This document shows positions 3,824-40,244 of a stretch of DNA of 40,244 nucleotides, one piece after another. Where the stretch lies: assembly GCA_903904515.1 (NCBI GenBank), contig CAIVCR010000014.1, forward strand, positions 1-40,244. Direction: 5' to 3'. Every line of letters starts with the position of its first letter. The stretch's first letter is position 1. Source of the stretch: an uncultured Bacteroidia bacterium (lineage in GTDB: Bacteria > Bacteroidota > Bacteroidia > Bacteroidales > Prolixibacteraceae). The notes below the pieces were generated by a model that saw only the letters and a list, made by a program, of their open reading frames with translations, ran no database searches and was not told where the DNA came from. Position numbers and translations under genes: made by a program.

Positions 3824-3850
3824 AATTAATAATTTTTATATTTTACCCGA

Positions 3851-3884
3851 CAAAGGTATTCAAAGATTTTATTTTATAGTTTTG
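3851..3884. promoter_or_regulatory. Divergent pair of candidate -7 boxes
   Basis: The minus strand reads TACCTTTG at 3851-3858, an exact TAnnTTTG match that puts the TonB-receptor transcript start about 24 nt before its ATG. The plus strand reads TAGTTTTG at 3877-3884, also exact, about 100 nt before the GH109-like gene. I found no convincing -33 TTTG at the expected 19-21 nt for either box, so both are weak candidates. Confidence 0.35.
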
Positions 3885-3985
3885 AGGTACCAATTAGGCA
3901 ATCTTTTTTTTCGAATAAGCCGAATTTTCAAAACAGATAAATCTTAAGATAATTATTTATTACCAATCAACTAAATAAAAATTGA

Positions 3986-26500: not shown

Positions 26501-26785
26501 GACAGCTATCCCCTCGAACATAAGTGCAGGTGCTACGTTGAGATTGCCTTCGAGGGAGAGCTCTTTGGCCAGATCGGTTCGAAAGAAGCGGTCAACTGTT
26601 GACACAACATGGGTCGTGCTCCCTAACCTTAAAAAAGCGGATTGCTCCAGACTAAAGGTTACAGAATCTCCGATAATCAAACCGCCTGTAAGGACTGCAG
26701 TACTTATAGCAACCCCCAGCGCAACAAGTATATTAGCTTTTAAATAGTATCTGAAATTACTGGAGATCAACGTTAAGCGCGTCAT
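23564..26785 (-). CDS. Large FtsX-type ABC transporter permease (ten-helix type)
   Basis: This 1073-residue inner-membrane protein is built as two FtsX/MacB halves. Helix 1 (about 15-38) is followed by a large periplasmic MacB_PCD-like domain. Three helices around 490-620 carry the FtsX motif ENRRSELGTLLMVGFTRSQIRALFL. Two linker helices lie near 650-700. A second half begins SMTIIILFALGTFLVVSTG, has another periplasmic domain, and ends with three helices containing RTLLERKEEIALLTALGFTHRQVVHLL. Such type VII ABC systems use ATP to move lipoproteins, lipids or peptides at the periplasmic face instead of across the membrane. Its start overlaps the ATPase stop (ATGA), so the two form one transporter. 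The substrate is unknown. Confidence 0.9.
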   Translation of the reverse strand: MTRLTLISSNFRYYLKANILVALGVAISTAVLTGGLIIGDSVTFSLEQSAFLRLGSTTHVVSTVDRFFRTDLAKELSLEGNLNVAPALMFEGIAVAEGGRERVNKVQITGIDNRFEQISKSKIYNSLSDNEVIISLNLAGRLHLKIGDNFIIRIKKGSLIPLNAPFVSDAETSVSFRAVVKNIADQQNMGFFNLKNAQTAPYNLFLSLARLNTLMKFNGKANRLLISAPSATDKQIGELLDHCFTPEDAGLKVKTLPLLKETEITSERVFIEDQIVRAFEPTGQSQGILTYFANSLEVKERSTPYSFISTIDDNSLTDNSIIINQWVASDLNVKVGDSLLIKYYQIGPLRQLIEKGTRFVIQKIVPIEGKYGDRDLMPALPGMSDAGHCRDWEAGVPIKLGSIRTKDEVYWKQYKGTPKAFISLKKAHQIWGNRFGNYTAIRIDENLLTDKTYKALFAASIKPANLGVLITPVRENGLNAARNGVDFSQLFIGLSFFLLLAALILTSLLFLFNLENRRSELGTLLMVGFTRSQIRALFLCEGAVISIIGGLFGLFLAVIYTKLIFLALNTLWWEAVRTSILLIDIKAITLLSGLIISVFMAIVTILFALHRSFKRQTVKLQRKQNHEERPIVQIVRKWGMFISLGLAFGLVGFQLSGSGNLSSSLFFISGSLMLTGLLLLADLVLRRNRHEMVSNLSLNTFNRRSRSQNLGRSMTIIILFALGTFLVVSTGANREGSLSGSNEKESGTGGFQFFSETSIPVLFSLNDMDQRSKEGLTTPFNAFQFSKIEGDDASCLNLNRAANPAILGADPTLFRNRFSFDTKCAEFGQKEVWQALNEPLGKVIPAIADQTVIQWGLGKNIGDTLIYRNEMGDTLRLKLIAGLSPSVFQGYVLISTDNFLKNFATTSGSNLFLIEVPKGHEEKTSEELQSVFRDYGWEMTSASQRLMEFNSVANTYLSIFLALGALGLILGTVGLAIVLARTLLERKEEIALLTALGFTHRQVVHLLVKEYAVLLVWGVLTGFLSAVVAVLPNFILPAGKVPFWTVLLIVAVILLNGLIWIIGLSWVRVRQIK

Positions 26786-27456
26786 TGGAGCCTGCCGTTT
26801 TTTAGATGATAAATCTTATCCATTTGAGAAGCAAGTTCTGACGAATGAGTAACAACGATCAGGGAGACACCCTCTTCGCTGCTAATATGGTTCAGAAGCT
26901 CTGCCAGATTTTCTGCATTTTGTTCATCCAGCGCTCCGGTTGGCTCATCAGCAAGGATTAACTGTGGTTTATTGATAAGTGCTCTGACGACGGCGGTTCG
27001 CTGACATTCGCCTCCCGAGAGTTCGGATGGCTTCTGGTTGCGTTGCTCCCAGATTCCAACTTTACGGAGCAAATGTTCAGCCCAATCCTTGTCAGCTTTC
27101 CCTACGATCTTTTTAAAGGGCAAAACCGGCAAGAGCACGTTCTCCCAGAGGGTGCATTGCGGTAAGAGGTGGTGCATCTGAAAAACGAAACCGAGTTCCC
27201 GGTTACGGAAATGGGCCAGCTCCTCATGCGAATAGCCTGTTATCCTGGCATCTTTGAAGATAATCTCACCTGCATCAGGGTGATCAAGTGTCCCAATCAG
27301 ATTCAGCAGGGTCGTTTTTCCCGATCCGCTTGGGCCGGCAATGGCAATCTTCTGGTTCGTATCTACTTCTAAGTTAAGATTCTCAAGAACCTTCCTGAAA
27401 TTGTTTTTCGATGGTTCACCGTAACCTTTGGAAATATTTTTTAATTGAAGGATCAT
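26782..27456 (-). CDS. ABC transporter ATP-binding protein (LolD/MacB family)
   Basis: The 224-residue ATPase has Walker A GPSGSGKTT (about 41-49), Q-loop FVFQMHHLLP (about 90-99), signature LSGGECQR (about 144-151), Walker B LILADEPTGALD (about 164-175) and switch His in VVTHSSE (about 199-205). The LADEPTGALD and MHHLLP versions are typical of the LolD/MacB/FtsE group. It is coupled to the large permease gene by a 4-nt overlap and starts 11 bp after the glycosyltransferase gene, so the three are probably co-transcribed. Confidence 0.94.
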   Translation of the reverse strand: MILQLKNISKGYGEPSKNNFRKVLENLNLEVDTNQKIAIAGPSGSGKTTLLNLIGTLDHPDAGEIIFKDARITGYSHEELAHFRNRELGFVFQMHHLLPQCTLWENVLLPVLPFKKIVGKADKDWAEHLLRKVGIWEQRNQKPSELSGGECQRTAVVRALINKPQLILADEPTGALDEQNAENLAELLNHISSEEGVSLIVVTHSSELASQMDKIYHLKNGRLQ

Positions 27457-27467
27457 TGTATTAAAAA

Positions 27468-28748
27468 TCAGAGTTTTTGATAAATCCCGATCATCTCTTT
27501 GGCATGTACATGGATATTAAAATTCAGCTCCACCCCTTTTCTGGCAGCAAGGCTCAGGTTATTTAATGTTTCAGAATCAGGTAACAATCCTGCCAGGGTA
27601 TTGCAGAGCGCTTCAGCAGTATTGGGCTCATAGGTGATACCTCCGCCAGACAAACCAATAATTTCGGGGAATGCTCCCAGAGCCGGTTGGATAACCGGGG
27701 TACCCGAAGCCATTGACTCCAGCAGATACATTCCGAAAGCTTCTCCATTTCTGACGGGAACCGAGATCACAGAAACGCGTCTAAAGAAGTCTATTCTGCT
27801 GTTATCTTCAAATTCATCAATAAATTCCACATCTTCGGTGAGTCTTTCTTTCGATATTTTTTTGGTTATATGCTTAATATACTGCGCGTCTGCTCCGGTT
27901 GAACCACCGGTAAGTAAAAGCCTTACATCCTCAAAGCCGGCTCTTTTTTTCAATTGAATAAACGCATCCACCAGAATATCCAATCCATTTTCGGGACACA
28001 TACGGGATATATAGCCGATATTACGCTTCTTCTCTATCGTGGGCATAAACTCGTAATCATCCGGATCGACACCCAGGTAGAGACTCTTAATTTTTTCCAC
28101 AGGGAGTGCCATTCTTTTTTGCATCACGTTCGAAAAAAAATGACTTACTCCTATAAAAAGGTCTACAAATTTTGCTTTTTCACTCATAAGGTTCCAGATC
28201 TGATCCTGAAAAGCTGGTTGCATGGCATCAACCCAAACATCTTCATCCTGCAATGAACAGACTATCTTTACATTCAGCCGCTCTTTAATCCTATGGGCCA
28301 AACCAAGTAACAAGGCGTTTGATATATGAACGACATCCGGTTTACAGTTTTCATGCATCCAATCGACCAAACGTTCAAGCTCCTCATTTTGCCTGCCATC
28401 TTCGCCAAGTAACATCGAAACGGTCATCTCTTCAAGCCCTTTGGCATTGGTTGACCCGGCCCTTGAAGCGGCAATCTTCAGGATGGGCTTCGAATTGAGA
28501 ATCCGGTCAACCCACGCCGGAGCTTTCCTGAAAATCGGATAAAGCTGTTTTAAATAGATACTTACTGCACCATAGAACACAGGAATCTCTTCAATATCAT
28601 GTTCATCTGAAAAAATGGGCAAGTACATAGGAATCTTGATGACCTGATGACCCTGTTGACGAAGGGCAACAACATATTTACTGTCGCGCAGACAGTTTCC
28701 GCAATAAAAACTCCCTCCTGAACCCGGGATAATCTGAACTATAATCAT
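27468..28748 (-). CDS. GT4-family glycosyltransferase
   Basis: The 426-residue GT-B enzyme starts MIIVQIIPGSGGSFYCGNCLRDSKYVVALRQQGHQV, with the Gly-rich N-terminal acceptor loop. A nucleotide-sugar-binding half begins near IGYISRMCPENGLDILVDAF. The GT4 EX7E-type region is RNGEAFGMYLLESMASGTPVI, followed by GGITYEPNTAEAL. There is no signal peptide or helix, so it acts in the cytoplasm, probably on a lipid-linked or cell-envelope glycan. The donor and acceptor cannot be read. It lies 50 bp after the PQQ-like propeller gene and 11 bp before the ABC ATPase, so it links the redox cluster and the transporter on one strand. Confidence 0.86.
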   Translation of the reverse strand: MIIVQIIPGSGGSFYCGNCLRDSKYVVALRQQGHQVIKIPMYLPIFSDEHDIEEIPVFYGAVSIYLKQLYPIFRKAPAWVDRILNSKPILKIAASRAGSTNAKGLEEMTVSMLLGEDGRQNEELERLVDWMHENCKPDVVHISNALLLGLAHRIKERLNVKIVCSLQDEDVWVDAMQPAFQDQIWNLMSEKAKFVDLFIGVSHFFSNVMQKRMALPVEKIKSLYLGVDPDDYEFMPTIEKKRNIGYISRMCPENGLDILVDAFIQLKKRAGFEDVRLLLTGGSTGADAQYIKHITKKISKERLTEDVEFIDEFEDNSRIDFFRRVSVISVPVRNGEAFGMYLLESMASGTPVIQPALGAFPEIIGLSGGGITYEPNTAEALCNTLAGLLPDSETLNNLSLAARKGVELNFNIHVHAKEMIGIYQKL

Positions 28749-28798: not shown

Positions 28799-29908
28799 CT
28801 ATTTTCCAAAGCAATAAATTGCTCCATTCAGTGTGCACACCACCATTAAATTTTCGATAACGGCCGGGTTATGCAGAATTGAATTGCCTACTTCGTATTT
28901 CCAGATCAGGGATCCATCCGAAAGTTTGATCAATGCCAGATCACCCCTCATATTGGCAGTCAAAACTTTGTCCCTGATGATAACCGGTGAGGCTTCAACA
29001 CGATTGCCGGTATTAAAGTTCCAAAGAAGTTTGCCGCTATTTTTATCGAAGCAATAAATGAACTTATCACGATTGCCCGTTACAAGTTTATCGTCAGATA
29101 ATGAAGCAGATGCGACAAATGGTTGTTTAGCCTCTTTGTTTTCCCAGCTCCAGACTATTTTTCCAGCCCGCGTATCAACCTTCGAAAACTTACCATCATA
29201 GTCGCCGATATAGGCCATTTGATCACTTACAGGACATGATCCGGCCACGTATGTAGCCACATTGATCTTCGAATCCGATTTCCCGCTATTGATGTCTACA
29301 ATATGCAAAAAACCGTCACAACCACCAAATATGGCTTTCCCATTAAAACAGGCTGCTTCACCATTGATGAAATTGTCAGATTCGTATTTCCACTTCATTT
29401 TACCTGTTTGTGCATCCACACAATGCAGGTTGTAATCATAACTTCCTACAATTAACCATGTCTTAAATCCTAATTTCCAATAATTTGCAGAACCCATAAT
29501 TTGGTTGTCCGTTTTGTATTTCCAGATTAGTGATCCATCTGAAAGTTTAAGAGCGTAAAGGGTTCCATCCAGGTTTCCAACAAAGATCCTGTTATTCAAA
29601 ATAAGTGCAGGCGCCTCAATTGAATTCTCTGTCTTATATTTCCAGATTAATTTTCCTTTGAGATCCAAACAATAAACAACGCCATCTGTAGCACCTACAA
29701 CTATCCTTCCATCTGCAATTACTGCGGTTGATTTAATATTATCACCAATTTGATAGCTCCAAATAAGCTTTGGTTTGTCGGGAAAGCGAACTTCCGTGGA
29801 ACCCAGAAGATCCTGACCACCGCGAAAGTTGCTCCAGCTACTTGCAGTTTGCCCATTCGCACCTGCAAAACAGCTAAAAATCAGAATAAGAAAATATATA
29901 AGTCTCAT
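28799..29908 (-). CDS. Periplasmic PQQ-like (BamB-type) beta-propeller protein
   Basis: The ATG at 29908 gives 369 residues with a signal peptide (MRLIYFLILIFSCFAGANGQ). A start at 29944 would put 12 polar residues in front and overlap the upstream gene. About seven or eight repeats of the PQQ-propeller type follow, each with a G-x-L-x-W-K-Y strand (KLIWSYQIGD, GKLIWKYKTEN, GSLIWKYKTDN, GKMKWKYESDN, GSLIWKYEVGN). No catalytic residues of quinoprotein dehydrogenases are visible, so it is more likely a scaffold or docking protein than an enzyme. It is 2 bp after the FAD/Fe-S gene and belongs to the redox cluster, which has two more propellers of this kind and one of NHL type. Confidence 0.87.
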   Translation of the reverse strand: MRLIYFLILIFSCFAGANGQTASSWSNFRGGQDLLGSTEVRFPDKPKLIWSYQIGDNIKSTAVIADGRIVVGATDGVVYCLDLKGKLIWKYKTENSIEAPALILNNRIFVGNLDGTLYALKLSDGSLIWKYKTDNQIMGSANYWKLGFKTWLIVGSYDYNLHCVDAQTGKMKWKYESDNFINGEAACFNGKAIFGGCDGFLHIVDINSGKSDSKINVATYVAGSCPVSDQMAYIGDYDGKFSKVDTRAGKIVWSWENKEAKQPFVASASLSDDKLVTGNRDKFIYCFDKNSGKLLWNFNTGNRVEASPVIIRDKVLTANMRGDLALIKLSDGSLIWKYEVGNSILHNPAVIENLMVVCTLNGAIYCFGK

Positions 29909-29910
29909 AA

Positions 29911-31455
29911 TTAACTTTTTACAGTTAGTGCTCCAGTCGGGCATGCTTTGGCCACTTTTTCAGCTGTTTCGGTCAGTCCGGCATCTATGGATTCATTAAA
30001 AGGAACACCAATTTGAACATCAAATCCCCGTCCGATGTATGAGAACCCATATTTCTCCTGGTATTTTGAGGTCATTCGCACGCATATACCACATTTAATG
30101 CATTTAAGGGGCTCATAAACTATTGAATGTGCGAAATACTTTGTCATTACCTTGCGCACATTACCAGCATACCGGCGCTGGTTAGCATTATATTTACCCG
30201 ATAGATCTCTTAATTTGCAATTTTCGATATCACGGCAATCACAATGAAGGCATCGTTGTGCCTCCCGGATAGCTTCTTCTGGAGTATAACCCTCAGATAA
30301 TAAGTTATCTGATTTTATTCTGTCATATTTGACTGACTCCTTAAGATATTCGGATATTTCATCTCCAAGCAGCCGACCAAAACTCGAATTAAACAACCGG
30401 GGTTCCCCTATTACCTCTTCACCTGATAAATACTGAGCTACTGACCATGCCACCTCTTTTCCCTGACCAATTGGACGAACCGACATCCTTGAAAAACGTA
30501 ACGTGTTTCCAATGGCAAAAACGCCGTTCATTGAGGTTTCGTAGCTGTTTCGCCCTGCTTCAATTCCCTTGGGATTGGTTAGAAATCCCCAGGTTCTGAT
30601 TTCATCAACAAGTGCACCTGTTGCAATTACTACAGCATCATATTGATTTATAACTTGTTGGAATAAAGTTGCATTAATTTCAGTCTCACCTTTAAATAAA
30701 ATACCAGTACTTAATATTGTATTGATCTCCCTGTCCAGAACAGCAGTCGGTAAGAGTTCCGGATCGATATTGGTACGAAGAAGTCCTCCCGGAGCATTCT
30801 CCTTATCATATAATGTAGTCTGATAACCGTTTAACTGTAAATAATAGGCTGCGGACAAACCAGCAGGTCCTGCTCCGATTACGGCGACTCTTTTTCCTTT
30901 AAGAGGTAGTGGTTCATAAGGGTGGAGATTATTTTCATCTCCAACAAACCGTTTTAAGAGGCAAATAGAGACCGAAGTGTCAACTGTCCGGCGATGACAG
31001 GCCCCTTCGCATGGAGCAGGGCAAATGCGGCCCAGGACAGATGGTAGCGCGATATCTTTTTTAACAACTTTTAATGCGGCCTCAAATTTTCCGGCTGCGA
31101 TTAACCTGTTCATTTGCGGAATATCCATATGAGCCGGGCATGCCACCTGACATGGTCCCTGGCAATCCCCGACGTGCTCACTTAAAAGCAGCTCCAATCC
31201 GGTCTGACGTGCCTCCCTGATCTCTTCGTCATCTGTGATTACCGACATCCCTTCGGTTACGGTAACAGAGCAGGATGGAAATAAACGGCCATTTACGCTA
31301 TCTTTTACAAGGCAGAGCATGCAGGAAGTAAAATGGCCCAGTTCCTCGTTGTAACACATTGAAGGGACAGAAAATCCGGCAGATTCAGCAGCCTTAATTA
31401 CCGAGGTACCCTCTTCAACGACTGTATTTTGACCGTTTATATTGATTTGAATCAT
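29911..31455 (-). CDS. FAD/Fe-S oxidoreductase subunit: NuoG-type ferredoxin fused to a GltD-like FAD domain lacking the NAD(P)H domain
   Basis: This 514-residue cytoplasmic protein has four parts. A [2Fe-2S] plant-type ferredoxin (Cys 34, 45, 48, 62) comes first. A Fer4_20 region as in GltD/NfnB follows (GDCQGPCQVACPAHMDIPQ, Cys 98, 102, 106, then Cys 145, 149, 153). The FAD domain starts VAVIGAGPAGLSAAYYL (190-206). The C-terminal Fe-S part has CLHCDC (402-407), CIKCGICVR (452-460) and ACPTGAL (504-510). In GltD/NfnB about 120 residues of NAD(P)H-binding Rossmann fold sit between IATGA and the closing FAD motif. Here only about 30 residues separate IATGA (277-281) from GVFAIGN (311-317), so that domain is absent. 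Electrons should come from the NuoE-NuoF-like partner encoded upstream. It resembles the variable subunit of HydABC/Bfu-type complexes. Confidence 0.85.
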   Translation of the reverse strand: MIQININGQNTVVEEGTSVIKAAESAGFSVPSMCYNEELGHFTSCMLCLVKDSVNGRLFPSCSVTVTEGMSVITDDEEIREARQTGLELLLSEHVGDCQGPCQVACPAHMDIPQMNRLIAAGKFEAALKVVKKDIALPSVLGRICPAPCEGACHRRTVDTSVSICLLKRFVGDENNLHPYEPLPLKGKRVAVIGAGPAGLSAAYYLQLNGYQTTLYDKENAPGGLLRTNIDPELLPTAVLDREINTILSTGILFKGETEINATLFQQVINQYDAVVIATGALVDEIRTWGFLTNPKGIEAGRNSYETSMNGVFAIGNTLRFSRMSVRPIGQGKEVAWSVAQYLSGEEVIGEPRLFNSSFGRLLGDEISEYLKESVKYDRIKSDNLLSEGYTPEEAIREAQRCLHCDCRDIENCKLRDLSGKYNANQRRYAGNVRKVMTKYFAHSIVYEPLKCIKCGICVRMTSKYQEKYGFSYIGRGFDVQIGVPFNESIDAGLTETAEKVAKACPTGALTVKS

Positions 31456-31458
31456 TAA

Positions 31459-32109
31459 TTAATTTTCTAATAAATGTTTAGGATTATTAATGATGTATTG
31501 TCTGATTCTGTAATATTCATCATTATCCCTGATTATATGATCATGAAAACGTGGTTGCCACACCGGTTTACCTTGCGATTGTCGTAATTCGTTAATTCGA
31601 CGTCCTGAAAACGTTTTGAATGCACGAACAAATTCGAACAATCCATGATGTTTCATCGGTTTTATTGTTTTATTCGTGAAAATTGTATCATTGGGGATGA
31701 CGGTTTCGGTTGGGATTACGGTTTCGGTTGGGATCACGGTTTCGGTTGGGATCACGGTTTCGGTTGGGATCACGGTTTCGGTTGGGATCACGGTAGAGAC
31801 GGGTTTTAAACCCGTCTCTACGTCCACGTAATTAATTCTATTATCAATGATTATAATCCCATGAACGTGATTTGGCATAATCACAAATTCATCCAAACGA
31901 ATATTATCATAATGGTTCGGCAAATCGAACCAACATTGATTTACGATTTTGCCGTATTGATTTAATTCCATTTTGCCGTTTGCAACGCGTCCGAATAAAT
32001 TGTCACGATCCTGGGTACAGATTGTAACAAAATATGAACCTTCGGATGAATAATCCCATCCTTTTAACCTGGTAGATTCTATTCGATATTTATTATGATA
32101 TAATGACAT
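31459..32109 (-). CDS. REP-associated tyrosine transposase (RAYT, Y1-type TnpA-REP)
   Basis: The 216-residue protein has the RAYT order: YRIESTRLKGWDYSSEGSYFVTICTQDR near the start, the HUH metal site PNHVHGIIII (His 81 and 83), FVRAFKTFSGRRIN (159-173), WQPRFHDHIIRDNDEYYRIRQYIINNPKHL at the end with the nucleophilic Tyr (among 199-205). Family members nick REP palindromes as single-stranded DNA. Two unusual insertions lie between the HUH motif and FVRAF: a REP-type palindrome (31793-31821) read as residues 97-106, and a hexapeptide repeat PTETVI (about 109-140). The gene sits between two subunit genes of a redox complex, 42 bp after one and 3 bp before the other. Activity is plausible because all core motifs are kept. 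Confidence 0.9.
   Translation of the reverse strand: MSLYHNKYRIESTRLKGWDYSSEGSYFVTICTQDRDNLFGRVANGKMELNQYGKIVNQCWFDLPNHYDNIRLDEFVIMPNHVHGIIIIDNRINYVDVETGLKPVSTVIPTETVIPTETVIPTETVIPTETVIPTETVIPNDTIFTNKTIKPMKHHGLFEFVRAFKTFSGRRINELRQSQGKPVWQPRFHDHIIRDNDEYYRIRQYIINNPKHLLEN
31691..31797 (-). repeat. 18-bp in-frame tandem repeat inside the RAYT gene
   Basis: Six head-to-tail units of 18 bp (GGTTGGGATCACGGTTTC on the plus strand) begin near 31691, 31708, 31726, 31744, 31762 and 31780. The oldest-looking copies at the low-coordinate end are changed (GGATGA, GGATTA). On the coding strand they give PTETVI repeats. The 18-bp period keeps the frame, so copy number could vary without breaking the gene. 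Confidence 0.9.
31793..31821. repeat. REP-type palindrome embedded in the RAYT reading frame
   Basis: Perfect 14-bp arms GTAGAGACGGGTTT (31793-31806) and AAACCCGTCTCTAC (31808-31821) share a 1-nt centre. GTAGAGACG...CGTCTCTAC palindromes are, from memory, widespread dispersed repeats in Bacteroidota and cyanobacteria. On the coding strand it reads VETGLKPVST. Confidence 0.88.
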
Positions 32110-32151
32110 TCAGATAATTATGATATTTTGTCTATTTAAATACAAATTTAG

Positions 32152-34491
32152 TCATTTGACAACCACCGCATCCACCGGACAAACCTGGCGGCAGGCGTCG
32201 CATTTAATACACAAGTCGGTATTAATCACATGTTTTTGGTGCGGAAGAAATGGAATGGCCTCTACCGGACATCGTTGAACGCACAGTGTGCATCCGATGC
32301 AATCGTCAGTGATAGAATAGTTTATCAATTCGGTGCATTTACCTGTAGGGCAAATGCCATTTAAATGGGCCTCATATTCCTCCCTGAAATATTTTAAGGT
32401 ACTTAAAATGGGATTTGGTGCGGTTCGTCCTAATCCGCAAAGAGAACCCTTCTTTGTCCATTCTGCCAGCTTTTCGAGTTTTTCGAGGTCGCCCGGCTGC
32501 CCTTTTCCCTTTGTGAGGTTATCCATAATATCGAGCATCCTTTTCGTTCCCACGCGACAAAAAGTGCATTTGCCGCACGACTCATCCTGAGTAAAGGAGA
32601 GGAAAAACCGGGCAATATCAACCATGCAATCGGTGTCGTCAAGGACGATCAATCCACCTGAACCCATCATTGCACCAAGGCTTGTAAGCGACTCATAATC
32701 AATTGGTGTATCCTGTAAGCTGGCGGGAATACAGCCGCCTGAAGGACCTCCTATCTGGACTGCCTTGAATTTACGTCCGTTGGCAATACCGCCGCCGATT
32801 TCATCAACGATCTGTCTGATTGTCATTCCCATTGGGACTTCTATCAATCCGCCGCGAGCCACTTTTCCTGCAAGGGCAAAAACCTTGGTTCCTTTACTTT
32901 TCTCGGTGCCAATGCGGGTAAACCGGTCAACTGTATCCCGCATAATAAAAGAGATATGGGCGAATGTTTCTGTATTATTGACTAGTGTTGGTAATCCGAA
33001 TAATCCCTTCACAGCCGGGAAGGGTGGTCTGAGATGGGGAAATCCCCTATTGCCCTCGATGGACTGGATCAGTGCGGTCTCCTCCCCACAAACAAAAGCG
33101 CCGGCACCTTCATAAACTTTCACATTGAAATTAAAGCCTGATCCAAGTATATTGTTGCCAATCAGATTATTATCCTGACAAATCTGAAGTGCTGCCCGGA
33201 TTCTTGTCACTGCGAGCGGGTATTCTGCACGAATATAGAAGTAACCTTCGCAACTATTCACCGCAAAAGCACCAATAATCATCCCTTCAATAACCCGGTA
33301 CGGGTACGATTCGAGAAGCATCCGGTCCATGAAAGCTCCAGGGTCTCCTTCATCACCATTGCAAATGAGGTATTTAAGGTCGCTTTCCTGTTTAGCAACA
33401 AGTTCCCATTTAATCCCCGTTGGGAAGCCTGCTCCTCCCCGTCCCCTGATACCGCTTGTTTTGATTTTATCAATCACCTGAGCAGGTGTATATTCACTGA
33501 ACACTTTTTTTAATGCGAGAAATCCACCTTTCTGCTGGTACTCTTCAAGATCAAGAGGATTGATTAAACCCCTGTGCTCTGTGGCAATTGGAAACTGCTT
33601 TCCAAGAAAAGATGAAACATGTTTTTCTCTGATATTCAATTCATACCGTTCGATCCCCTTCCATTGATGATCCGTCTGAATATTTTCAATAACATTCAGA
33701 AATTTATTTTTTAGTCTCGAAAAACGACCTGCCGGCTGAAAATGAGACATTACAATTTGTTGAATATCTTCAGGTTTTACTTTGGAATATAGGGTTGGTT
33801 CCCCCTTAACGGGGACAATTTCAACCAACGGTACCTGGTGACACATACCCACACAGCCAACGCTTTTAAGTTTGACCTGCAATCCGGTTTGGTTAATTGT
33901 ATGTTCGACAGCATCTTTAATATCGCTGCTGCCACTAGCCACACAGCACGAACCAAGACCGATCCTGATTTCCCCCTGAATCTCACTGCCGTCCGTTTTC
34001 CGAAAGAATTTTTTGCCTTTATTAGCCTTTATGCTTTCAAAGTCTTTAATAATATCGGCAGCCTTATCGGATGTTACATGCCCATAAGTTATATGATCTA
34101 TTTGAACTACAGGTGCCAGCGTACAGCATCCCAGGCAACTAACTTTTTCTATGGTATATTTTCGGGTTACATCAGTGTTCTGTCCCTCCTTTAAATTAAA
34201 TGCCCTTCTTAAAGAATCGTAAACCAGTCCGGCTCCTTTAACATGGCAGGCTGTTCCGACACACACTCGTACCATATGTTCGCCCACAGGGGCAAGCCTG
34301 AACTGTGAATAAAAACTGGCAACTCCTATGATTTCGGCAGGTTTGATATCAGTGGTGTCGCTAACCCTTCGTAAAGCGGCTTCCGGCAAATAGTTATATT
34401 CGCGTTGAATAGCCTGAAGAATAGGAATTAAGGCTGTTTTAGTACTCCCCTTCTCCGCAATAGTACGGTCTATTTTATCCAGATTAATCAT
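32152..34491 (-). CDS. Fused NuoE-NuoF-type NADH-binding Fe-S flavoprotein (HydC-HydB/Bfu-like)
   Basis: The 779-residue cytoplasmic protein contains, in order, a NuoE thioredoxin-like [2Fe-2S] domain (Cys 77, 82, 119, 123), a second thioredoxin-like Fe-S domain (GSCC 180-183, GCVGMC 212-217), the NuoF core with FMN/NADH sites GRGGAGFPTGIKW (350-362), GDEGDPGAF (379-387) and GAGAFVCGEETALIQSIEG (462-480), the N3-type [4Fe-4S] site SCGKCTFCR with SLCGLG (Cys 639, 642, 645, 685), and a C-terminal 2x[4Fe-4S] ferredoxin (Cys 731-741 and 761-771). Complex I NuoF lacks the second and last domains. Their presence is typical of HydB in bifurcating hydrogenases and the wider Bfu family, where NuoE-like HydC is separate. 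Here the two are fused. No hydrogenase or formate dehydrogenase subunit is in the window. Confidence 0.9.
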   Translation of the reverse strand: MINLDKIDRTIAEKGSTKTALIPILQAIQREYNYLPEAALRRVSDTTDIKPAEIIGVASFYSQFRLAPVGEHMVRVCVGTACHVKGAGLVYDSLRRAFNLKEGQNTDVTRKYTIEKVSCLGCCTLAPVVQIDHITYGHVTSDKAADIIKDFESIKANKGKKFFRKTDGSEIQGEIRIGLGSCCVASGSSDIKDAVEHTINQTGLQVKLKSVGCVGMCHQVPLVEIVPVKGEPTLYSKVKPEDIQQIVMSHFQPAGRFSRLKNKFLNVIENIQTDHQWKGIERYELNIREKHVSSFLGKQFPIATEHRGLINPLDLEEYQQKGGFLALKKVFSEYTPAQVIDKIKTSGIRGRGGAGFPTGIKWELVAKQESDLKYLICNGDEGDPGAFMDRMLLESYPYRVIEGMIIGAFAVNSCEGYFYIRAEYPLAVTRIRAALQICQDNNLIGNNILGSGFNFNVKVYEGAGAFVCGEETALIQSIEGNRGFPHLRPPFPAVKGLFGLPTLVNNTETFAHISFIMRDTVDRFTRIGTEKSKGTKVFALAGKVARGGLIEVPMGMTIRQIVDEIGGGIANGRKFKAVQIGGPSGGCIPASLQDTPIDYESLTSLGAMMGSGGLIVLDDTDCMVDIARFFLSFTQDESCGKCTFCRVGTKRMLDIMDNLTKGKGQPGDLEKLEKLAEWTKKGSLCGLGRTAPNPILSTLKYFREEYEAHLNGICPTGKCTELINYSITDDCIGCTLCVQRCPVEAIPFLPHQKHVINTDLCIKCDACRQVCPVDAVVVK

Positions 34492-34527
34492 TATCAGGTT
34501 TTTGAGCCATATGTAAATCCATGAATT

Positions 34528-36354
34528 TTACTTTTTACCAATACAATAAATGAATTTAGGTGTTCTAAGGTACATCCGACCATCCTTAAATACCGGGGTT
34601 GTGGTAATTTTTTCACCCGCATCACCTTCGCCCAGAATTTTTTCTGTTTTTGCTGCCTCAAAAACTTTCATTTTCCCTGATGTATTATATGTATATAGCT
34701 TATTTTCACATACTACAGGAGATGAATAAAATCCTGTTCCATCCTCCTTCACCCAGTATTTCTCACCGGTTTTGGCATCATAACATGCAAGTACTCCATA
34801 GCTGGTTGCAATAAAAAGTAGTCCGTTGGCACAAACAGGACTTGCCACTTCAGGCATATACTCGTCACTTTCCCAAACCTTTGCTTTCTTAACCGGATCT
34901 ATAGCGACCAACCTGGCATACTCGTTGGCAGCAAAGATGAGGCCACTTCCGAACCCCGGAGATGGTCCGACTTCACCCATCATACAGTCGACAGACCACA
35001 GTTCCTTACCCGAATCAGTGTCGTATCCCGCCACCATTGGTTCGGTAGAAAGGACAACCTGGTATTGTCCGTTAATCTCAGCTAAAATTGGACTTGCCCA
35101 GGAAATTTTGCCCTTTCGAATCGTTTCCCATGCCAACTCTCCGGTAGCCGCTTTGAGTGCCAACAATTTCCGGCTTTTATTTGTATCGTACTGAATAAAG
35201 ATTTTGTCCTTCCACATGATCAGCGACGAAGCATGACCATAATGGTTATCAGGAATTCCGAGATTACGGGCCCAGATACGATTGCCATCCAGATCAAAAC
35301 AGATAATATCTCCGGTTGCGAACAAAGCGAATACACGATTACCGTCAGTTGTTAGCGAAGGAGCTGCATATCCTGTATCATCAGTCACCTTCGGAGGTAA
35401 TGCGGGAGAGCCAGGAATCTTGTCAACAGGCTGTTTCCAAATTACTTTGCCGGAATTCTGATCAAAACAATATACTTCGGCTAGCTTTCCGTCAGCTCCG
35501 GAGAGAAATATTTTATTTCCCCAGATTACGGGTGAATTGAACCCCTTTTTGGGGACAGGAGTTTTCCAGATTACATTTTTTCCGGAAGCTGCATCCCATT
35601 CAACAGGTGTACCTTTGGTATAAAATACACCATTTCCAAACGGTCCGCGAAAAGAGGGAACATTTGACTTCAGCTGACTGGAGGAAGGATAGCCGATTTT
35701 TGCAACAGCTGCCGGCAATGGTTTTACCTCAGTGGTTATCGCCGGCCTGGCTTTTAAACTGTCAATGGTGTTTTTTGAAGAATCCAGAATTAACGGGGTC
35801 TGACTAACCTGAATTACTTCAATCTTTTCCTGATTTTCAGTTGATTTTACAGACGCAATAGATTCATCTACATTGTATTTCTGAAGATGATCGACTGACG
35901 CAAGGGAGGCCACTAAACCAAGAACAATAAGAAGTGAACCTGTTATCAGGACCCATCGCTGCGTTAACATCCTGTTAAGCAACTCTTTATCACTCACTTC
36001 AACGGGCTCTTCTATTCTGGACCTTAAATCAAATACCACGCGTAATGAAAATGCCAGTACGATCGCTCCAAAAAGCAATAGGTAACCGCCGGTTTTAACC
36101 TGCCATTGGGTGTTAAAATAGGCTTTGCGGGCCAACAGATCGAAATTTCGGATCTCCTGCTTTAACTCATCACTGTTTGGTTCCTGACTAAGCCGCTTGA
36201 CCAATGATGTAATAGCCTTGCTTTCAAGCGGTTTATTCTTTGCCATCTGAATAAAATTCAACAGCAACAATAAAGCGACCGTTATGCAGAATATTCCCGA
36301 AACAAGGGCAATATTGATGGATAATTTAAGTTTAATATCTTGTTCCATGTGCAT
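34528..36354 (-). CDS. Membrane-anchored PQQ-like beta-propeller protein
   Basis: The 608-residue protein has three transmembrane helices (about 13-36, 88-109 and 133-155). A linker of about 65 residues leads to a periplasmic eight-bladed PQQ-like propeller (about 225-608), with W-docking repeats such as GKVIWKQPVDK, GNRIWARNLG, GELAWETIRKG, GKELWSVDCM, AKVWESDEY and GEKYWVKEDG. The ATG at 36348 (third residue) could also be used. The anchor is like that of membrane-bound quinoprotein dehydrogenases, but I see no clear PQQ- and calcium-binding set, so the cofactor is doubtful. Its place directly after the NapH-like gene suggests that it works with that membrane polyferredoxin. Confidence 0.85.
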   Translation of the reverse strand: MHMEQDIKLKLSINIALVSGIFCITVALLLLLNFIQMAKNKPLESKAITSLVKRLSQEPNSDELKQEIRNFDLLARKAYFNTQWQVKTGGYLLLFGAIVLAFSLRVVFDLRSRIEEPVEVSDKELLNRMLTQRWVLITGSLLIVLGLVASLASVDHLQKYNVDESIASVKSTENQEKIEVIQVSQTPLILDSSKNTIDSLKARPAITTEVKPLPAAVAKIGYPSSSQLKSNVPSFRGPFGNGVFYTKGTPVEWDAASGKNVIWKTPVPKKGFNSPVIWGNKIFLSGADGKLAEVYCFDQNSGKVIWKQPVDKIPGSPALPPKVTDDTGYAAPSLTTDGNRVFALFATGDIICFDLDGNRIWARNLGIPDNHYGHASSLIMWKDKIFIQYDTNKSRKLLALKAATGELAWETIRKGKISWASPILAEINGQYQVVLSTEPMVAGYDTDSGKELWSVDCMMGEVGPSPGFGSGLIFAANEYARLVAIDPVKKAKVWESDEYMPEVASPVCANGLLFIATSYGVLACYDAKTGEKYWVKEDGTGFYSSPVVCENKLYTYNTSGKMKVFEAAKTEKILGEGDAGEKITTTPVFKDGRMYLRTPKFIYCIGKK

Positions 36355-36370
36355 GCGATAATTAACTACA

Positions 36371-37633
36371 TTATTTCTTTACCGGACAATAGCTTATGCA
36401 CCTTGCACAGCTATAACAATTACTTTTATCGGGTTCATAGTCACTCTTTGTCCGAAAAATGACCTGATTGAGCAATGACATTCCGATTACGAAACCCATA
36501 AATCCGCCGGCCAACCAACATCCGATATAAAATTTATGACGAATTATTGTTGCCTCATTGACAAGTATTTCCATTGATTTACCTGAACTAAGAAATGCCT
36601 GAACATCGAGATTTTTTTCATCATTGTGCACTTCAGGTTTGGAAATTAACAGTTCAGCCAGATATACCTTGGGATTTGCCTTCGAAATCCAGGTATGGGC
36701 TTTTGAGCCAGCGAAGCCCAAGGACAAGACCCATATTGGTATCAGCAACAGGTAAACCAGAAAGCGGTTAACGCCCCAAATTCTGTGCTTTACCTGCTTT
36801 TCATCAGTGGGCAAATCAATGGCATCAAACGGGCACGAGTCACTGCACAGTTTGCATTGAATGCAGGCTGCGGGAGATATGGTAAGGTGCCATTTTGAAA
36901 ACTTGGACATCCAGCTCAGCAGGACTCCATAAGGACATAGAAACCGGCAATATGGACGAGCCACAAACATTCCCATTAATAAAAATGCGATTCCAAGGAC
37001 AATCATGTGGAATGCGGCATCCATTCTAAAGATTCCGACAAATGGGTCATACCGGCAAATAATAAAATCGGTACCTGTAGCTGCAAACAGAACAGCAATG
37101 GTGAGATACAGGTACGGAATGAGCCCCAGCGTTTTTCGAAGCCATTCGGGTAGCGACAGCGGTTTAATAATTATTAAATCCTGTATTGCCCCCAGAGAAC
37201 AGGCACCGGCGCAAAAAGTCCTTCCAAAGTAGAGGGTGAAAAGAAGCGGCAGTAAGAAAAACAGCAAGGTTGAGACGGAGATGGCATATCCGGGATCGAA
37301 AATCGTCAGTGCCACATTCTGAATTGATCCGATTGAGCAAATGCAACCATCCCGGTAAAAACCGAAGTAGAGTAAGGTGAATAGTGATAGCCACACCATC
37401 CATTTTCGTGATCGCTTCCGTACTGCCAGCCAACTTGCAAGCGAAAGGACAACCAGCAACACGAAAACATCGGTATATTCAAGTGCCAGCGCACGAGGCT
37501 CAGGAGTTATTGGTGTCGGCTGATGATACCCGGTCCCAAATTCTGGTTTTGGAAATCGCTGTTTCTGAGTCATTCCTGCTAAACTGTAAAACAGTAAAGT
37601 AAATAGCAGCGATATCTTAATCCATTTATTCAT
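36371..37633 (-). CDS. NapH/NosR-like membrane polyferredoxin
   Basis: The 420-residue inner-membrane protein has about six or seven helices and four cysteine-rich sites. Signal-like helix 1 (about 7-22) is followed by a short periplasmic stretch. The membrane Cys motifs are FCAGACSLGAIQD (Cys 141, 145) and CRFLCPYGVLLS (Cys 229, 233), both typical of NosR/NapH/CcpM proteins. The first [4Fe-4S] site is CIQCKLCSDSCP (257-268) and the second is CYSCARCISYCP (406-417) at the C-terminus. An extra DGCICSIG (Cys 97, 99) lies between helices. There is no N-terminal FMN domain, unlike NosR. Such proteins pass electrons between quinol and periplasmic acceptors. It sits between a Tat-exported ferredoxin and a propeller gene. 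Confidence 0.88.
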   Translation of the reverse strand: MNKWIKISLLFTLLFYSLAGMTQKQRFPKPEFGTGYHQPTPITPEPRALALEYTDVFVLLVVLSLASWLAVRKRSRKWMVWLSLFTLLYFGFYRDGCICSIGSIQNVALTIFDPGYAISVSTLLFFLLPLLFTLYFGRTFCAGACSLGAIQDLIIIKPLSLPEWLRKTLGLIPYLYLTIAVLFAATGTDFIICRYDPFVGIFRMDAAFHMIVLGIAFLLMGMFVARPYCRFLCPYGVLLSWMSKFSKWHLTISPAACIQCKLCSDSCPFDAIDLPTDEKQVKHRIWGVNRFLVYLLLIPIWVLSLGFAGSKAHTWISKANPKVYLAELLISKPEVHNDEKNLDVQAFLSSGKSMEILVNEATIIRHKFYIGCWLAGGFMGFVIGMSLLNQVIFRTKSDYEPDKSNCYSCARCISYCPVKK

Positions 37634-37655
37634 GAATATCTTATTGTATTACTTT

Positions 37656-38213
37656 TCAACCCTCTTTTGTGAAACTACCCTTGACTTTATAGGCATTACT
37701 TGCCTTAACCCGTGAAATTGCTTCAGAGGGACACAACCGTGCGATTGAACACTCATTGCAATTGAGACAAATGTTGTGAATAATCTGCAAATGCAATGAC
37801 CCATTTCCAAATGATGTGCACCCTTTGACGCATTTGGCGCATCCAATGCAAAGGTCTCTATTTATAACATATTCAAAATAAGGCTCCTCAATGTATTTCC
37901 GCTGAATTGCAGCTGTTGGGCAGAGTTGATTCTCAGCTGCAGTGGAGAGTTTATTCGGATCCGGTTTAAGATAACCGCCGCACAGGTCACAGTAACCGCA
38001 CAGATCAAAGGCGTGAATACATTTTACTGCCGATGGGGTCATCACGCACGAAGTGGCGCATCTGCCACACTGGGTGCATTTGAACGGGTCGATTTGCCAG
38101 ACATATTTCTCTGCGGTCAGATTCCTGGCTGTTATTCCACCCACAGCCCCCAATGTGATGAGCAATGAGAGGCGGGTACCTTTCCGTATAAAATCGCGTC
38201 TACTGTTATTCAT
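37656..38213 (-). CDS. Tat-exported polyferredoxin (NapG-like)
   Basis: The start at 38213 (MNNSRRDFIRKGTRLSLLI) gives 185 residues and a twin-arginine signal SRRDFIRKG. A strong ribosome site AAGGAG (38221-38226) stands 7 nt before it, so the longer start at 38264 is unlikely. The Fe-S sites are CTQCGRCATSC, CGYCDLCGG, LCPTAAI, CIGCAKCVKGC and CLNCNECSIARLCP, enough for about four [4Fe-4S] clusters as in NapG and related proteins. It should act in the periplasm or on the outer face of the inner membrane and exchange electrons with the NapH-like protein 21 bp downstream. The first 8 nt overlap the end of the small Cys-rich gene. Confidence 0.88.
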   Translation of the reverse strand: MNNSRRDFIRKGTRLSLLITLGAVGGITARNLTAEKYVWQIDPFKCTQCGRCATSCVMTPSAVKCIHAFDLCGYCDLCGGYLKPDPNKLSTAAENQLCPTAAIQRKYIEEPYFEYVINRDLCIGCAKCVKGCTSFGNGSLHLQIIHNICLNCNECSIARLCPSEAISRVKASNAYKVKGSFTKEG

Positions 38214-38403
38214 TTTTTTTCTCCTTATTTGCTTGTGGAAGATCACATTGAGAATACTTACCACAATTTTTGCATAAAGTTGAGACTGAACAATTATCAG
38301 GGCTAACCACCTTGTTTTCTACAATAAGAAAAGTGCTAAGTAGTCCAATAACTGATAAAATAGTCAGGCGAATTCCCTGTATAAAAAAATCTTTTCTGTT
38401 CAT
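38206..38403 (-). CDS. 65-residue Cys-rich small protein with export signal
   Basis: The product begins MNRKDFFIQGIRLTILSVIGLL, an N-R-K-D-F-F variant of the Tat motif plus a hydrophobic stretch (about 12-28). The mature part of about 35 residues has CSVSTLCKNCGKYSQC (Cys 38, 44, 47, 53). Four cysteines in 16 residues could hold one Fe-S or metal site. A ribosome site AAGGAG (38409-38414) lies 5 nt before the ATG. The ATG overlaps the stop of the NHL gene (ATGA) and its end overlaps the polyferredoxin start, so it is clearly translated in the operon. I know no named family for it. Confidence 0.72.
   Translation of the reverse strand: MNRKDFFIQGIRLTILSVIGLLSTFLIVENKVVSPDNCSVSTLCKNCGKYSQCDLPQANKEKKNE
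38221..38226 (-). promoter_or_regulatory. Strong Shine-Dalgarno site for the polyferredoxin gene
   Basis: AAGGAG lies 7 nt before the ATG at 38213 on the minus strand. Strong sites are uncommon in Bacteroidota, and it decides the start of the NapG-like gene. Confidence 0.75.
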
Positions 38404-39368
38404 CGTTTCTCCTTTCTTACAAATAGACGTACCATTTTTCGATCCATATCCAGGACGTAAATATTCCCCTGGTTATCAACTGCCAGATCTGGGGCATGAC
38501 TATTCTCCTTAAATTTTGATGGGGCAGCAACAATGCCCAAAAACTCACCCGAAGGTTTGTAGATTTTAACCCGGATCGTCCCCTTTTCACTGGTGACAAA
38601 ACATCCGTCAGGTAAAAAGGCGAAATAGGCAGGATTGCAGCATCCGCTAAAACCTTCAACTCTCACGGAAGTTGCCTTCCACCAGGTTCGAAGTTCACCA
38701 TTCAATGTATAATTTTCGAGCGAATGTTTTCCGGGATTGACAATCCAAAGCTCCCCGTCAGGATTAACAGCAAGCTCGAAATAGGGACTCGGAATAATAA
38801 ACCCGTGAATCTGATCATTCCCGGATTTACCTGCAATCTCTCCCATCGGTTTTCCCTGAAGGGTAAACTTCCGGACAATTCGTTTACCGGCATCAGCAAC
38901 AAATACCATTTCCGATTTTTCTGCAATGGAGGTAATTACCGTACTATCTGAAAAAGTGTTCCAATCAGCAATCTTTAGCCCATCACTATTCAAAACGGAT
39001 ACCGATTTCCGAAATCCGATAAAAATATTTTTCTGCGATACAAACACGCAGGTTGGTTTTTGATCAAAGGGTACTTCTTTGATTAATTTTCCGGAAGGTT
39101 CTATAATCTGCATTTTTTGATCACCCACAACAAAAATTTTCCCATCCTGAAAACACATCCCTGAAGGTTCTGAGAAGTTAATTGCAAGGTCACGACTTTC
39201 ATTAAACATAATCAATGACGTGTCAATGCGCGCAAATGGATCGGCATCGAGAGCATAAGGATTGGCCGGAAGCTCATCCGGTTTGGAAGAGTAATAATCA
39301 TAGGTAACAACTGTTACAATCACAATGGCCAGAATAATCAGAAAAAAAACGATCCCCTTGTTCTTCAT
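38400..39368 (-). CDS. NHL-repeat six-bladed propeller protein with N-terminal anchor
   Basis: The ATG at 39368 (MKNKGIVFFLIILAIVIVTVV) gives 322 residues with an uncleaved-looking N-terminal helix (about 6-22). Six NHL-type blades follow with repeats such as PSGMCFQDGKIFVVGDQKMQIIEPSGKL, MVFVADAGKRIVRKFTLQGKPMG, ELAVNPDGELWIVNPGKHSLENYTLNGEL and DLAVDNQGNIYVLDMDRKMVRLF. A GFSGCCNPAYFAFLPDG motif (two adjacent Cys) lies near residue 240 and is a possible metal or cofactor site. It probably faces the periplasm. It is 9 nt after the next upstream propeller gene and overlaps the small Cys-rich gene by 4 nt. Confidence 0.85.
   Translation of the reverse strand: MKNKGIVFFLIILAIVIVTVVTYDYYSSKPDELPANPYALDADPFARIDTSLIMFNESRDLAINFSEPSGMCFQDGKIFVVGDQKMQIIEPSGKLIKEVPFDQKPTCVFVSQKNIFIGFRKSVSVLNSDGLKIADWNTFSDSTVITSIAEKSEMVFVADAGKRIVRKFTLQGKPMGEIAGKSGNDQIHGFIIPSPYFELAVNPDGELWIVNPGKHSLENYTLNGELRTWWKATSVRVEGFSGCCNPAYFAFLPDGCFVTSEKGTIRVKIYKPSGEFLGIVAAPSKFKENSHAPDLAVDNQGNIYVLDMDRKMVRLFVRKEKR
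38409..38414 (-). promoter_or_regulatory. Strong Shine-Dalgarno site for the 65-residue protein
   Basis: AAGGAG lies 5 nt before the ATG at 38403 on the minus strand, inside the 3' end of the NHL gene. It supports real translation of the small gene. Confidence 0.7.
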
Positions 39369-39377
39369 AACCATATT

Positions 39378-40244
39378 TTAAAGGTTCATATTTAAGCAAA
39401 CCATTGTTTTAGAATCTCTTAATATCAAAAAACCATTTGCAATTGCCAGAGGAGCCCAGGCATCTGCACCGTCCTTTATAACTTTTACCTGGTCCAGTTG
39501 AATATATTTGGAAGTACTTGGTTTGATAATTGTCAAAGTTCCCTCGTCATCGAGGATAAAGAATTTATTATCTGCTATAAAGTAAGGACCCAATCCAAAG
39601 CGGGCAGTTTGGCCACTTGACCAGACCATTTTCTTACAATCGGACGGATCGACGCAAACAAACTGATTTCTCAGTGAACCGGCATCTTTGGGTAATATTC
39701 CAAAAAGATGTCCTTCCCAATAGACTGGTGTCTGCTGTTCGCAGGCAAGTCCGAAACGGGGAAGGTATTGCTGCAAAACATCAATTGTAAAATTAGCACC
39801 ATTTTTCTTTAATTGAAGCATCATTGCTCCTGCTCCGTAACCTGCGGTCATAAATATTTTTCCATCGGGCATGCAAACCGGCGAGGGGGCGACGACTGAA
39901 TGGTTCCAGGCCGGTGTCTTCCACAGGACCCTCCCGATATCGGGTCCGTCTGCAGCGATGCCGACCAAACCTCCTATTGCGCTGTAAACGTACATTTTGC
40001 GACCACCAAAATTAAAGGGCATGACAGATGAATGTGACATTTTCCACCCGTCCGGATTAGGAGTTTCCCATAATTTCTTGCCGGTTTCGCAACTTACACC
40101 GATCAGAAGTGCCTTTCCTCCAGTGGCGATAATTGCTACATTGTTGTCAATCAGAGGACATTGGCCCGTATACCAGAATGGAATCTCGGTAGAATACTCT
40201 TTGGCTACATCAAGACCCCAACGAAAGTTTCCGGTTGCGCGGTC
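39378..40244 (-). CDS. PQQ-like beta-propeller protein, 5' end outside the window
   Basis: The frame stays open from the stop at 39378 through to the window edge at 40244, giving 288 codons and no start. An ATG at 40040 is internal: the 68 codons before it continue the propeller (TGNFRWGLDVAKEY, GKKLWETPNPDGWKM). Four or more W-docking blades are visible, including GRVLWKTPAWNHSV and CKKMVWSSGQTARFGLG. The order of blades and TETYPE of repeats match the other two PQQ-like propellers in the cluster. The missing N-terminus should carry a signal peptide or anchor. It is the first gene of the cluster seen here, and the operon promoter lies outside the window. Confidence 0.82.
   Translation of the reverse strand, partial: DRATGNFRWGLDVAKEYSTEIPFWYTGQCPLIDNNVAIIATGGKALLIGVSCETGKKLWETPNPDGWKMSHSSVMPFNFGGRKMYVYSAIGGLVGIAADGPDIGRVLWKTPAWNHSVVAPSPVCMPDGKIFMTAGYGAGAMMLQLKKNGANFTIDVLQQYLPRFGLACEQQTPVYWEGHLFGILPKDAGSLRNQFVCVDPSDCKKMVWSSGQTARFGLGPYFIADNKFFILDDEGTLTIIKPSTSKYIQLDQVKVIKDGADAWAPLAIANGFLILRDSKTMVCLNMNL

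Follow-up and report, generated by a model that had tools for sequence, protein, structure and literature searches.

A conserved Bacteroidales gene set that appears to link a Bfu-type NADH module to iron-sulphur and propeller proteins outside the membrane

Enzymes of the electron-bifurcating Bfu family have a BfuBC core in common. Its [2Fe-2S] cluster B2 has a histidine ligand that non-bifurcating homologues lack (PMC9304861). The Bfu enzymes described in the accessible part of that survey are either soluble or predicted proton-pumping membrane complexes, and none is tied there to a periplasmic acceptor. Here we describe a minus-strand gene set on a 40,244-nt contig (CAIVCR010000014.1, assembly GCA_903904515.1) of an uncultured Bacteroidia bacterium from the Prolixibacteraceae, in which about a dozen genes appear to link an NADH enzyme inside the cell to a chain of Fe-S and propeller proteins outside the membrane. 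The stretch analysed, referred to as the window, is a complete contig (C14) of the source genome, and the contig end cuts the upstream end of the gene set.

Among solved structures, the Stn/Nfn-Bfu enzymes (PDB 9bov, 8oh5, 9n5u; PMC10482914) are the closest relatives of both cytoplasmic subunits of the set. The Nuo-Bfu and Mbh-Bfu membrane complexes (PMC9304861) resemble it in that a Bfu core is joined to membrane subunits; however, the window's cluster proteins include no complex-I-like membrane subunits or hydrogenase subunits, and the electrons appear to be bound for the periplasm. With the NapGH proteins of periplasmic nitrate reductase the set shares a NapH core with two CX3C pairs and a ferredoxin motif, as well as a polyferredoxin of the twin-arginine translocation (Tat) type. 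On the other hand, no molybdenum reductase NapA was seen among the conserved genes or among the cluster proteins of the window, whose upstream end is cut. A preliminary description, made from the sequence alone, knew of no named system with this composition; we also found none in the open PMC literature or in the accessible part of the Bfu survey (PMC9304861).

The NADH module and its BfuA-type subunit

The centre of the set is a fused BfuC-BfuB protein of the NuoE-NuoF type (32152..34491), identified by Pfam domains and by alignment to structure chains. Its domains PF01257, PF01512, PF10531, PF10589 and Fer4 all scored above cut-off, the C-terminal one being of the 2[4Fe-4S] kind; the Pfam entries were taken as equal to the InterPro entries of the Bfu survey. 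The B2 ligands of NiFe-BfuB are C438, C476, H525, C531 and C536, with either Cys or Thr at the second position (PMC9304861). On the chain 7t2r_B these five residues are aligned, in this order, with C622, T660, H709, C714 and C719 of the window protein. For the set of 82 aligned core copies we found C622, H709, C714 and C719 to be invariant, while position 660 was Thr in 36 copies, Cys in 29 and Ser in 8 (73/82). The cysteines of the C1, B5 and B3/B4 clusters were present in 81-82 of the 82 copies each. The bifurcation type of the NADH module, as suggested in the preliminary description, is thus supported by the matching ligand set and by the B2 histidine and cysteines found in every copy, and the module very probably belongs to the Bfu family. 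It departs from the surveyed members in the fusion of BfuC and BfuB, and a third-substrate module made of NapH-like, polyferredoxin and propeller proteins is not among the modules listed in the accessible part of PMC9304861.

The second cytoplasmic subunit (29911..31455) is of BfuA type. Pfam searches and alignments to solved chains gave an N-terminal [2Fe-2S] domain, His/Cys and GltD-type Fe-S motifs, an FAD fold and a C-terminal Fe-S domain (PF13510, PF14691 and a partial FAD fold), so that the [2Fe-2S] and [4Fe-4S]/ferredoxin motifs of the Bfu family are present. The solved chains closest to it were the Stn/Nfn-Bfu chains 9bov_A, 9n5u_A and 8oh5_C; for the fused core, too, the nearest solved relatives were StnABC and Nfn-Bfu subunits. 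The subunit is reduced in comparison with these chains. When it is aligned to 9bov_A and 9n5u_A, about 130 residues of the NADP domain in the target are passed over, and its C-terminus is shorter than in the solved chains of 963-1178 aa. An insert able to restore the NADP domain was found in none of 73 BfuA-type copies; relative to the window subunit, inserts of at least 30 aa occurred in two of them, in one copy as 30 aa at residue 183 and in the other as a C-terminal extension. The whole FAD domain was gone in five of the 73 copies, which came from four families. Conversely, 18 cysteines and one histidine were kept in all 73 copies, with C165 kept in 68.

In StnC, bifurcation does not take place at the FAD (PMC10482914), and therefore a loss of FAD need not abolish bifurcation. 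With the NADP domain missing and the FAD domain dispensable, the third redox partner of the core is probably something other than NADP, as far as the domain content tells. These observations bear on the possibility that the module is a transhydrogenase of the Stn/Nfn-Bfu type, acting on NADH, ferredoxin and NADP, and that the genes around it are unrelated. Such an assignment would agree with the closest solved relatives and with the listing of some Nfn-Bfu enzymes in Bacteroidetes (PMC9304861), but the NADP domain that it requires is absent. Besides, a separate longer homologue was found in 8 of the 12 genomes searched (open frames of 905-1242 aa, six of them at 1236-1242 aa); since the two coexist, the short BfuA is a separate protein. 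We consider the transhydrogenase explanation extremely unlikely. In one locus (L059) the FAD/Fe-S subunit is extended at its C-terminus by 365 aa, and the propeller P1 has no gene of its own after it; the two are possibly fused.

Membrane and periplasmic proteins

The NapH-like membrane Fe-S protein (36371..37633) was recognised by Pfam, NCBIfam and a comparison with E. coli NapH. Fifteen of its cysteines were invariant in 73 sequences, namely those of two CX3C pairs and two ferredoxin motifs together with C97, C99 and C193. E. coli NapH aligned over residues 126-269 with a probability of 95.8%, both CX3C pairs included, though the score of 34.3 bits against the TIGR02163 cut-off of 213.05 places the protein far below the curated NapH family. 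The C-terminal ferredoxin motif and the three single cysteines are extra with respect to NapH: C193 faces no cysteine in the alignment, while C97 and C99 lie outside the aligned range. From hydropathy and the positive-inside rule, the ferredoxin motifs and CX3C pairs would face the cytoplasm and C97, C99 and C193 would lie near the periplasmic face, where they could hold an outer-side cluster.

The next gene upstream encodes a NapG-like polyferredoxin of Tat type (37656..38264; Pfam, tblastn and comparison with E. coli NapG, 89.3% probability). Its 16 cysteines, invariant in 21 sequences, would be enough for four [4Fe-4S] clusters. The open reading frame (ORF) begins at a GTG, and Met18 at 38213 is the likelier start. 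It overlaps the small Cys-rich protein of the preliminary description, which is indeed encoded by an ORF at 38206..38403; this protein of 65 aa, CysS, has a motif of four cysteines, an anchor and an N-terminus that reads as Tat-like, and was traced by a profile match, with no Pfam family. In the locus L066 (8403-9074) the small four-cysteine motif is fused to the N-terminus of the NapG-like polyferredoxin. On the conserved cysteines, a transmembrane Fe-S path through the BfuA-type, NapH-like and NapG-like proteins is likely.

NapGH-type proteins act at the quinone pool, and the NapH-like protein might in the same way reduce menaquinone. The set would then be an NADH/ferredoxin:menaquinone oxidoreductase comparable to Nuo-Bfu, with the periplasmic parts as accessories. 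MenD above cut-off or a strong MqnC match was found in 20 of 24 cluster genomes, as this explanation needs. Yet neither was found in the other four, which are 96-99% complete (G038, G032, G023 and G108), and MenA, too, stayed below cut-off in three of them, although there are weaker matches. Menaquinone reduction would also leave the conserved polyferredoxin, CysS and propellers unexplained, and we regard it as quite unlikely.

Four further members of the set are propeller proteins. An NHL propeller (38400..39374) was identified by its NHL match, alignment and a hydrophobic N-terminus that would serve as a membrane anchor. Its residues C245, C246, E263 and K264 were invariant in 101 aligned sequences, and, apart from the Fe-S proteins, the vicinal pair Cys245-Cys246 offers the most concrete candidate redox site in the periplasm. 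P3 (39378..40244), a PQQ-like (pyrroloquinoline quinone-like) beta-propeller with a PQQ_2 match, has its 5' end cut by the contig end; relatives show a membrane-anchor N-terminus. TM-PQQ (34528..36354) begins with three predicted membrane helices and continues as a PQQ-like propeller (Pfam, hydropathy), and P1 (28799..29944) is a PQQ-like propeller (Beta-prop_ACSF4) with a hydrophobic N-terminus.

A full-length P3 relative of 476 aa was available in the locus L080. Its structural model (pLDDT 91.9) showed a BamB-like propeller behind an N-terminal helix, with fold matches to BamB, YxaL and tetrathionate hydrolase. Identities in the listed matches were 12-17%, and the fold does not reveal the function; P3 may still belong to an enzyme family outside that list. 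P3 also differs from these proteins in being anchored in the inner membrane, as predicted, within a redox operon, and in having invariant or near-invariant residues of its own (H113, H161, R165, C216, H259, E357, R403 and D449), which may line the central cavity. The propellers of the window remained below the family cut-offs: TIGR03075 (PQQ-dependent dehydrogenase, cut-off 480.05) gave 72.3 bits for P1 and 59 for TM-PQQ, and TIGR03300 (BamB, cut-off 285.2) gave 160 for P1, 80.5 for TM-PQQ and 19.6 for the truncated P3. Matches to pqqC were found in 0 of 24 cluster genomes, a count from which nothing follows, as no positive control responded. PQQ is unlikely as the propeller cofactor. No CxxCH motif was present in the proteins checked.

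This last observation would suit a cytochrome-free extracellular electron exchange in which the propellers act as surface relays. Methanosarcina PQQ-domain proteins, in organisms without PQQ synthesis, are up during interspecies electron transfer (PMC6315138), and SqpA of Methanothrix has been suggested to carry electrons, possibly, at the cell surface (PMC10470525; both papers are cited from their accessible parts). However, the propellers show no known redox cofactor and the N-terminal anchors of P3 and NHL appear, on our reading, to be uncleaved. Nor was a conserved outer-membrane conduit apparent, since families other than propellers stood beside the set in at most 3 of 40 clustered loci. 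Exchange with the cell exterior is, in our judgement, a distinctly unlikely role. The same count bears on the terminal reductase that the preliminary description proposed to look for upstream of the window: in relatives only propellers recur beside the set in more than 3 of these loci.

Gene order, co-retention and neighbouring genes

Orthologues of the NapH-like protein (at least 39% identity and E ≤1e-27, with fragments counted and with short or 25-35% matches in further genomes left out) were found in 48 of 295 Bacteroidales genomes, from 31 families. A phylum sample of 395 gave a NapH match at E 1e-30 in the window's own genome only. The fused core, at 54% identity or more, was detected in 45 of the 295 genomes, as 39 full-length copies, five partial ones and one contig-edge fragment (G058). 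It occurred with NapH in 44 genomes and alone in one, while NapH was alone in four. Thus, the co-occurrence search proposed in the preliminary description shows the two parts together in nearly all their hosts, and absences should be taken as soft, given that three candidates per genome were scored for the core and two for FtsX (below). Hosts with strain records are Draconibacterium, Maribellus, Sunxiuqinia, Gaoshiqia and Perlabentimonas. Searches of plasmids returned distant relatives only, all below 60% identity (30 records for the NapH-like and one for the NHL-like protein).

Gene order was compared in two sets of loci: 40 stretches from 40 of the 47 other Bacteroidales genomes with a NapH orthologue, and 80 named loci, which are the 80 best-ranked among at least 559 relatives and lean to close ones. 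The sets share some genomes. Counts are given in this order, for genes on the same strand where enough flank was available, and identity thresholds make them lower bounds. Downstream of NapH we observed TM-PQQ in 35/40 and 63/63 loci, the fused core in 30/35 and 48/48, the BfuA-type subunit in 26/31 and 42/43, and P1 in 23/29 and 39/41. Upstream of it stood NHL in 32/35 and 69/70 loci and P3 in 25/31 and 59/60. The NapG-like gene was found in 117 of the 120 loci (tblastn) and CysS in 108 (profile match). The succession of NapH, TM-PQQ and fused core spans 23 families, and the neighbourhood is therefore more than chance.

The preliminary description named the scattering of these genes over neighbouring genomes, or a match with a characterised complex, as grounds for giving up its view. 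Neither check has overturned it: the parts are kept together over genomes, though the set is split in some. For example, NapH and the core were on separate contigs in six genomes (G145, G169, G170, G085, G016 and G070), in several of them with unrelated genes between, and in G197 the two were together with P3 and BfuA on another contig. All seven genomes still carry P3 and the short BfuA. P3 still adjoins NapH in G145 and G169; TM-PQQ directly adjoins the core in the same two genomes and lies two ORFs off in G170, and it has remained with NapH in G085, G016 and G070. In G128 the NapH gene has an internal stop and the fused core was not found, as would fit a decaying system. In many sediment bacteria the gene set seems to be retained or lost as a whole.

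One may ask whether these are simply neighbours inherited together, each part with a function of its own: a Bfu enzyme of the ordinary kind, a pair resembling NapGH, and proteins of the envelope. Mirror-tree correlations of 0.75-0.92, computed without a control, are also expected from vertical descent and so leave room for this explanation. Against it, presence and absence vary within families (e.g., f33 and f96) among the 31 that have NapH orthologues, and the parts co-occur even where the set is split. We find separate functions very unlikely; by the genomes compared, the genes are a conserved, co-retained unit.

In the window, ten minus-strand ORFs run from 28799 to the window end. The intergenic gaps from P3 to P1 are 3, -4 (overlap), overlap, 22, 16, 36, 42, 3 and -34 bp, in agreement with the gaps of at most 42 bp or overlaps noted in the preliminary description. 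The gene identities given there (NuoE-NuoF fusion, FAD/Fe-S subunit, NapH/NosR-like protein, polyferredoxin, three PQQ-like propellers and one NHL propeller) were borne out by Pfam, and the positions and spacing of the ten genes stand. Three same-strand genes beyond 28799 had, however, been overlooked: a GT4-type glycosyltransferase (27468..28748), the ATPase of an ATP-binding cassette (ABC) transporter (26782..27456) and an FtsX-type ABC permease of 1073 aa (23564..26785), all assigned by domain search. The glycosyltransferase and FtsX co-occur with the system, while the ATPase is linked to it by position only. FtsX was found in 47 of the 295 genomes at E 1e-60, 44 in common with NapH and three others; the glycosyltransferase was found in 42 at E 1e-70, 38 in common with NapH, and stood downstream of NapH in 11/19 and 29/37 loci. 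In L129 the ABC ATPase and FtsX genes are divergent and lie upstream of the propellers, not downstream.

The tenth gene encodes a probable REP-associated tyrosine transposase (RAYT; 31459..32109). It is an insertion and not a member of the system, as tblastn found it in only 2 of the 120 other loci (L079 and L080, with a truncated copy in L080). Its Y1_Tnp match was above the Pfam cut-off; the NCBIfam model for this transposase family gave 69.4 bits against a cut-off of 80. Within the gene, positions 31662-31821 hold an 18-bp tandem repeat (54-nt registers, 18 bp spacing) and a perfect 14-nt inverted repeat with arms 1 nt apart. Promoter-like sites (51, compared to 36.6 ± 6.9 in shuffles) and terminator-like sites (18, compared to 15.9 ± 4.6) were not used as evidence.

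Beyond the cut end of the window, relatives carry from 0 to 4 further PQQ-like propeller ORFs upstream of P3 per locus stretch. Among 97 loci with P3, 18 had none, 17 one, 34 two, 24 three and four had four, where the zero counts include loci ending at a contig end. Contig C103 was considered as the missing upstream neighbour and rejected: its propeller matches were all distant (23-26%), and in the single orientation compared the contig ends shared no overlap of 16-150 bases. Other genes were seen near the set in single loci or a few. In the close relative L080 (3-2805), a squalene-hopene-cyclase-like gene and an ArsP_1 permease gene lie upstream of the propellers; both have homologues in L149, and the cyclase-like gene alone also in L041, L076, L077 and L095. 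In Draconibacterium orientale (L085), a gene for a Thioredoxin_3 protein (15523-15978) separates the fused core from the FAD/Fe-S subunit, and a sensor kinase gene paired with one for a LytTR-type regulator, both named by reading, lies between the upstream propellers (3439-5212); homologues of these two regulatory genes occur in L089, L116 and L063. In L052 (2-6055), genes that by reading resemble a bifurcating operon of HdrA/MvhD type precede the cluster.

Direction of electron flow and possible role

We propose that the proteins form a membrane-attached complex. The fused BfuC-BfuB would exchange electrons with NADH and ferredoxin, and the BfuA-type subunit, as an Fe-S wire no longer reaching NADP, would pass them on to the clusters on the cytoplasmic side of the NapH-like protein. 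This protein would carry them across the membrane to the NapG-like polyferredoxin and CysS, from where they would reach the anchored or secreted propellers (P3, NHL with its vicinal cysteines, and TM-PQQ). A reductive step could then take place in the periplasm or envelope at the propeller proteins, and the glycosyltransferase and ABC/FtsX exporter might supply or export the envelope component concerned. By the potentials tabulated in PMC9304861, electrons of NADH (about -280 mV) and ferredoxin (about -500 mV) would merge to about -400 mV.

The chain could also run inward, with periplasmic propellers oxidising a reduced compound, the NapG- and NapH-like proteins acting as relay and the Bfu core bifurcating to NAD+ and ferredoxin. 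Bfu enzymes are reversible (PMC9304861), and several secreted propellers could bind varied substrates. However, a donor near -400 mV would be needed in the periplasm, and the potential quoted for PQQ-domain proteins, about +90 to +100 mV (PMC6315138), is far too high. Domain searches of the window's cluster proteins revealed no known dehydrogenase, hydrogenase or cytochrome, and the lack of CxxCH motifs in the proteins checked also speaks against inward flow, which we take to be unlikely.

Several observations weigh against outward flow with an envelope role. No terminal reductase and no known redox cofactor in the propellers were found, and the outward direction is argued from the redox potentials of PMC9304861. 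In the core, one B1 cysteine (C645) is replaced by Gly in 5 of 82 copies. In several genomes BfuA is not beside the fused core and may therefore serve other partners too. Four genomes have NapH without the fused core (G128, G188, G256 and G263, with only three candidates per genome scored), and 10 of the 48 NapH genomes have no glycosyltransferase at E 1e-70. The Fisher p-values for co-occurrence, 1e-33 to 1e-46, ignore shared ancestry and so overstate independence.

Taken as a whole, a membrane-attached, Bfu-based electron transfer with outward flow and an envelope role is a plausible reading of the sequences that we put forward tentatively. The preliminary description had anticipated its Bfu-type NADH module, the conserved unit and the lack of a named match, and had missed the loss of the NAD(P) domain and the extra upstream propellers; the scaffold role that it gave to the propellers would be a conjecture. 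The more specific picture of an envelope machine, in which confurcated NADH and ferredoxin electrons travel along a haem-free membrane Fe-S wire and reach catalytic sites on periplasmic propellers for making, modifying or exporting the envelope component of the glycosyltransferase and ABC exporter, is possible but doubtful. Against the modules described in the accessible part of the survey, which has a further 17 unassigned BfuB clades, the set is best regarded as a variant of the Bfu family whose third half-reaction is probably in the periplasm.

The gene set offers a route to ask whether low-potential electrons of NADH and ferredoxin cross the membrane without haem. It also provides a functional setting for PQQ-like propellers, whose role was obscure. 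If the envelope-machine picture is true, this would be, to our knowledge, the first electron-bifurcating enzyme with a third half-reaction outside the cytoplasm.

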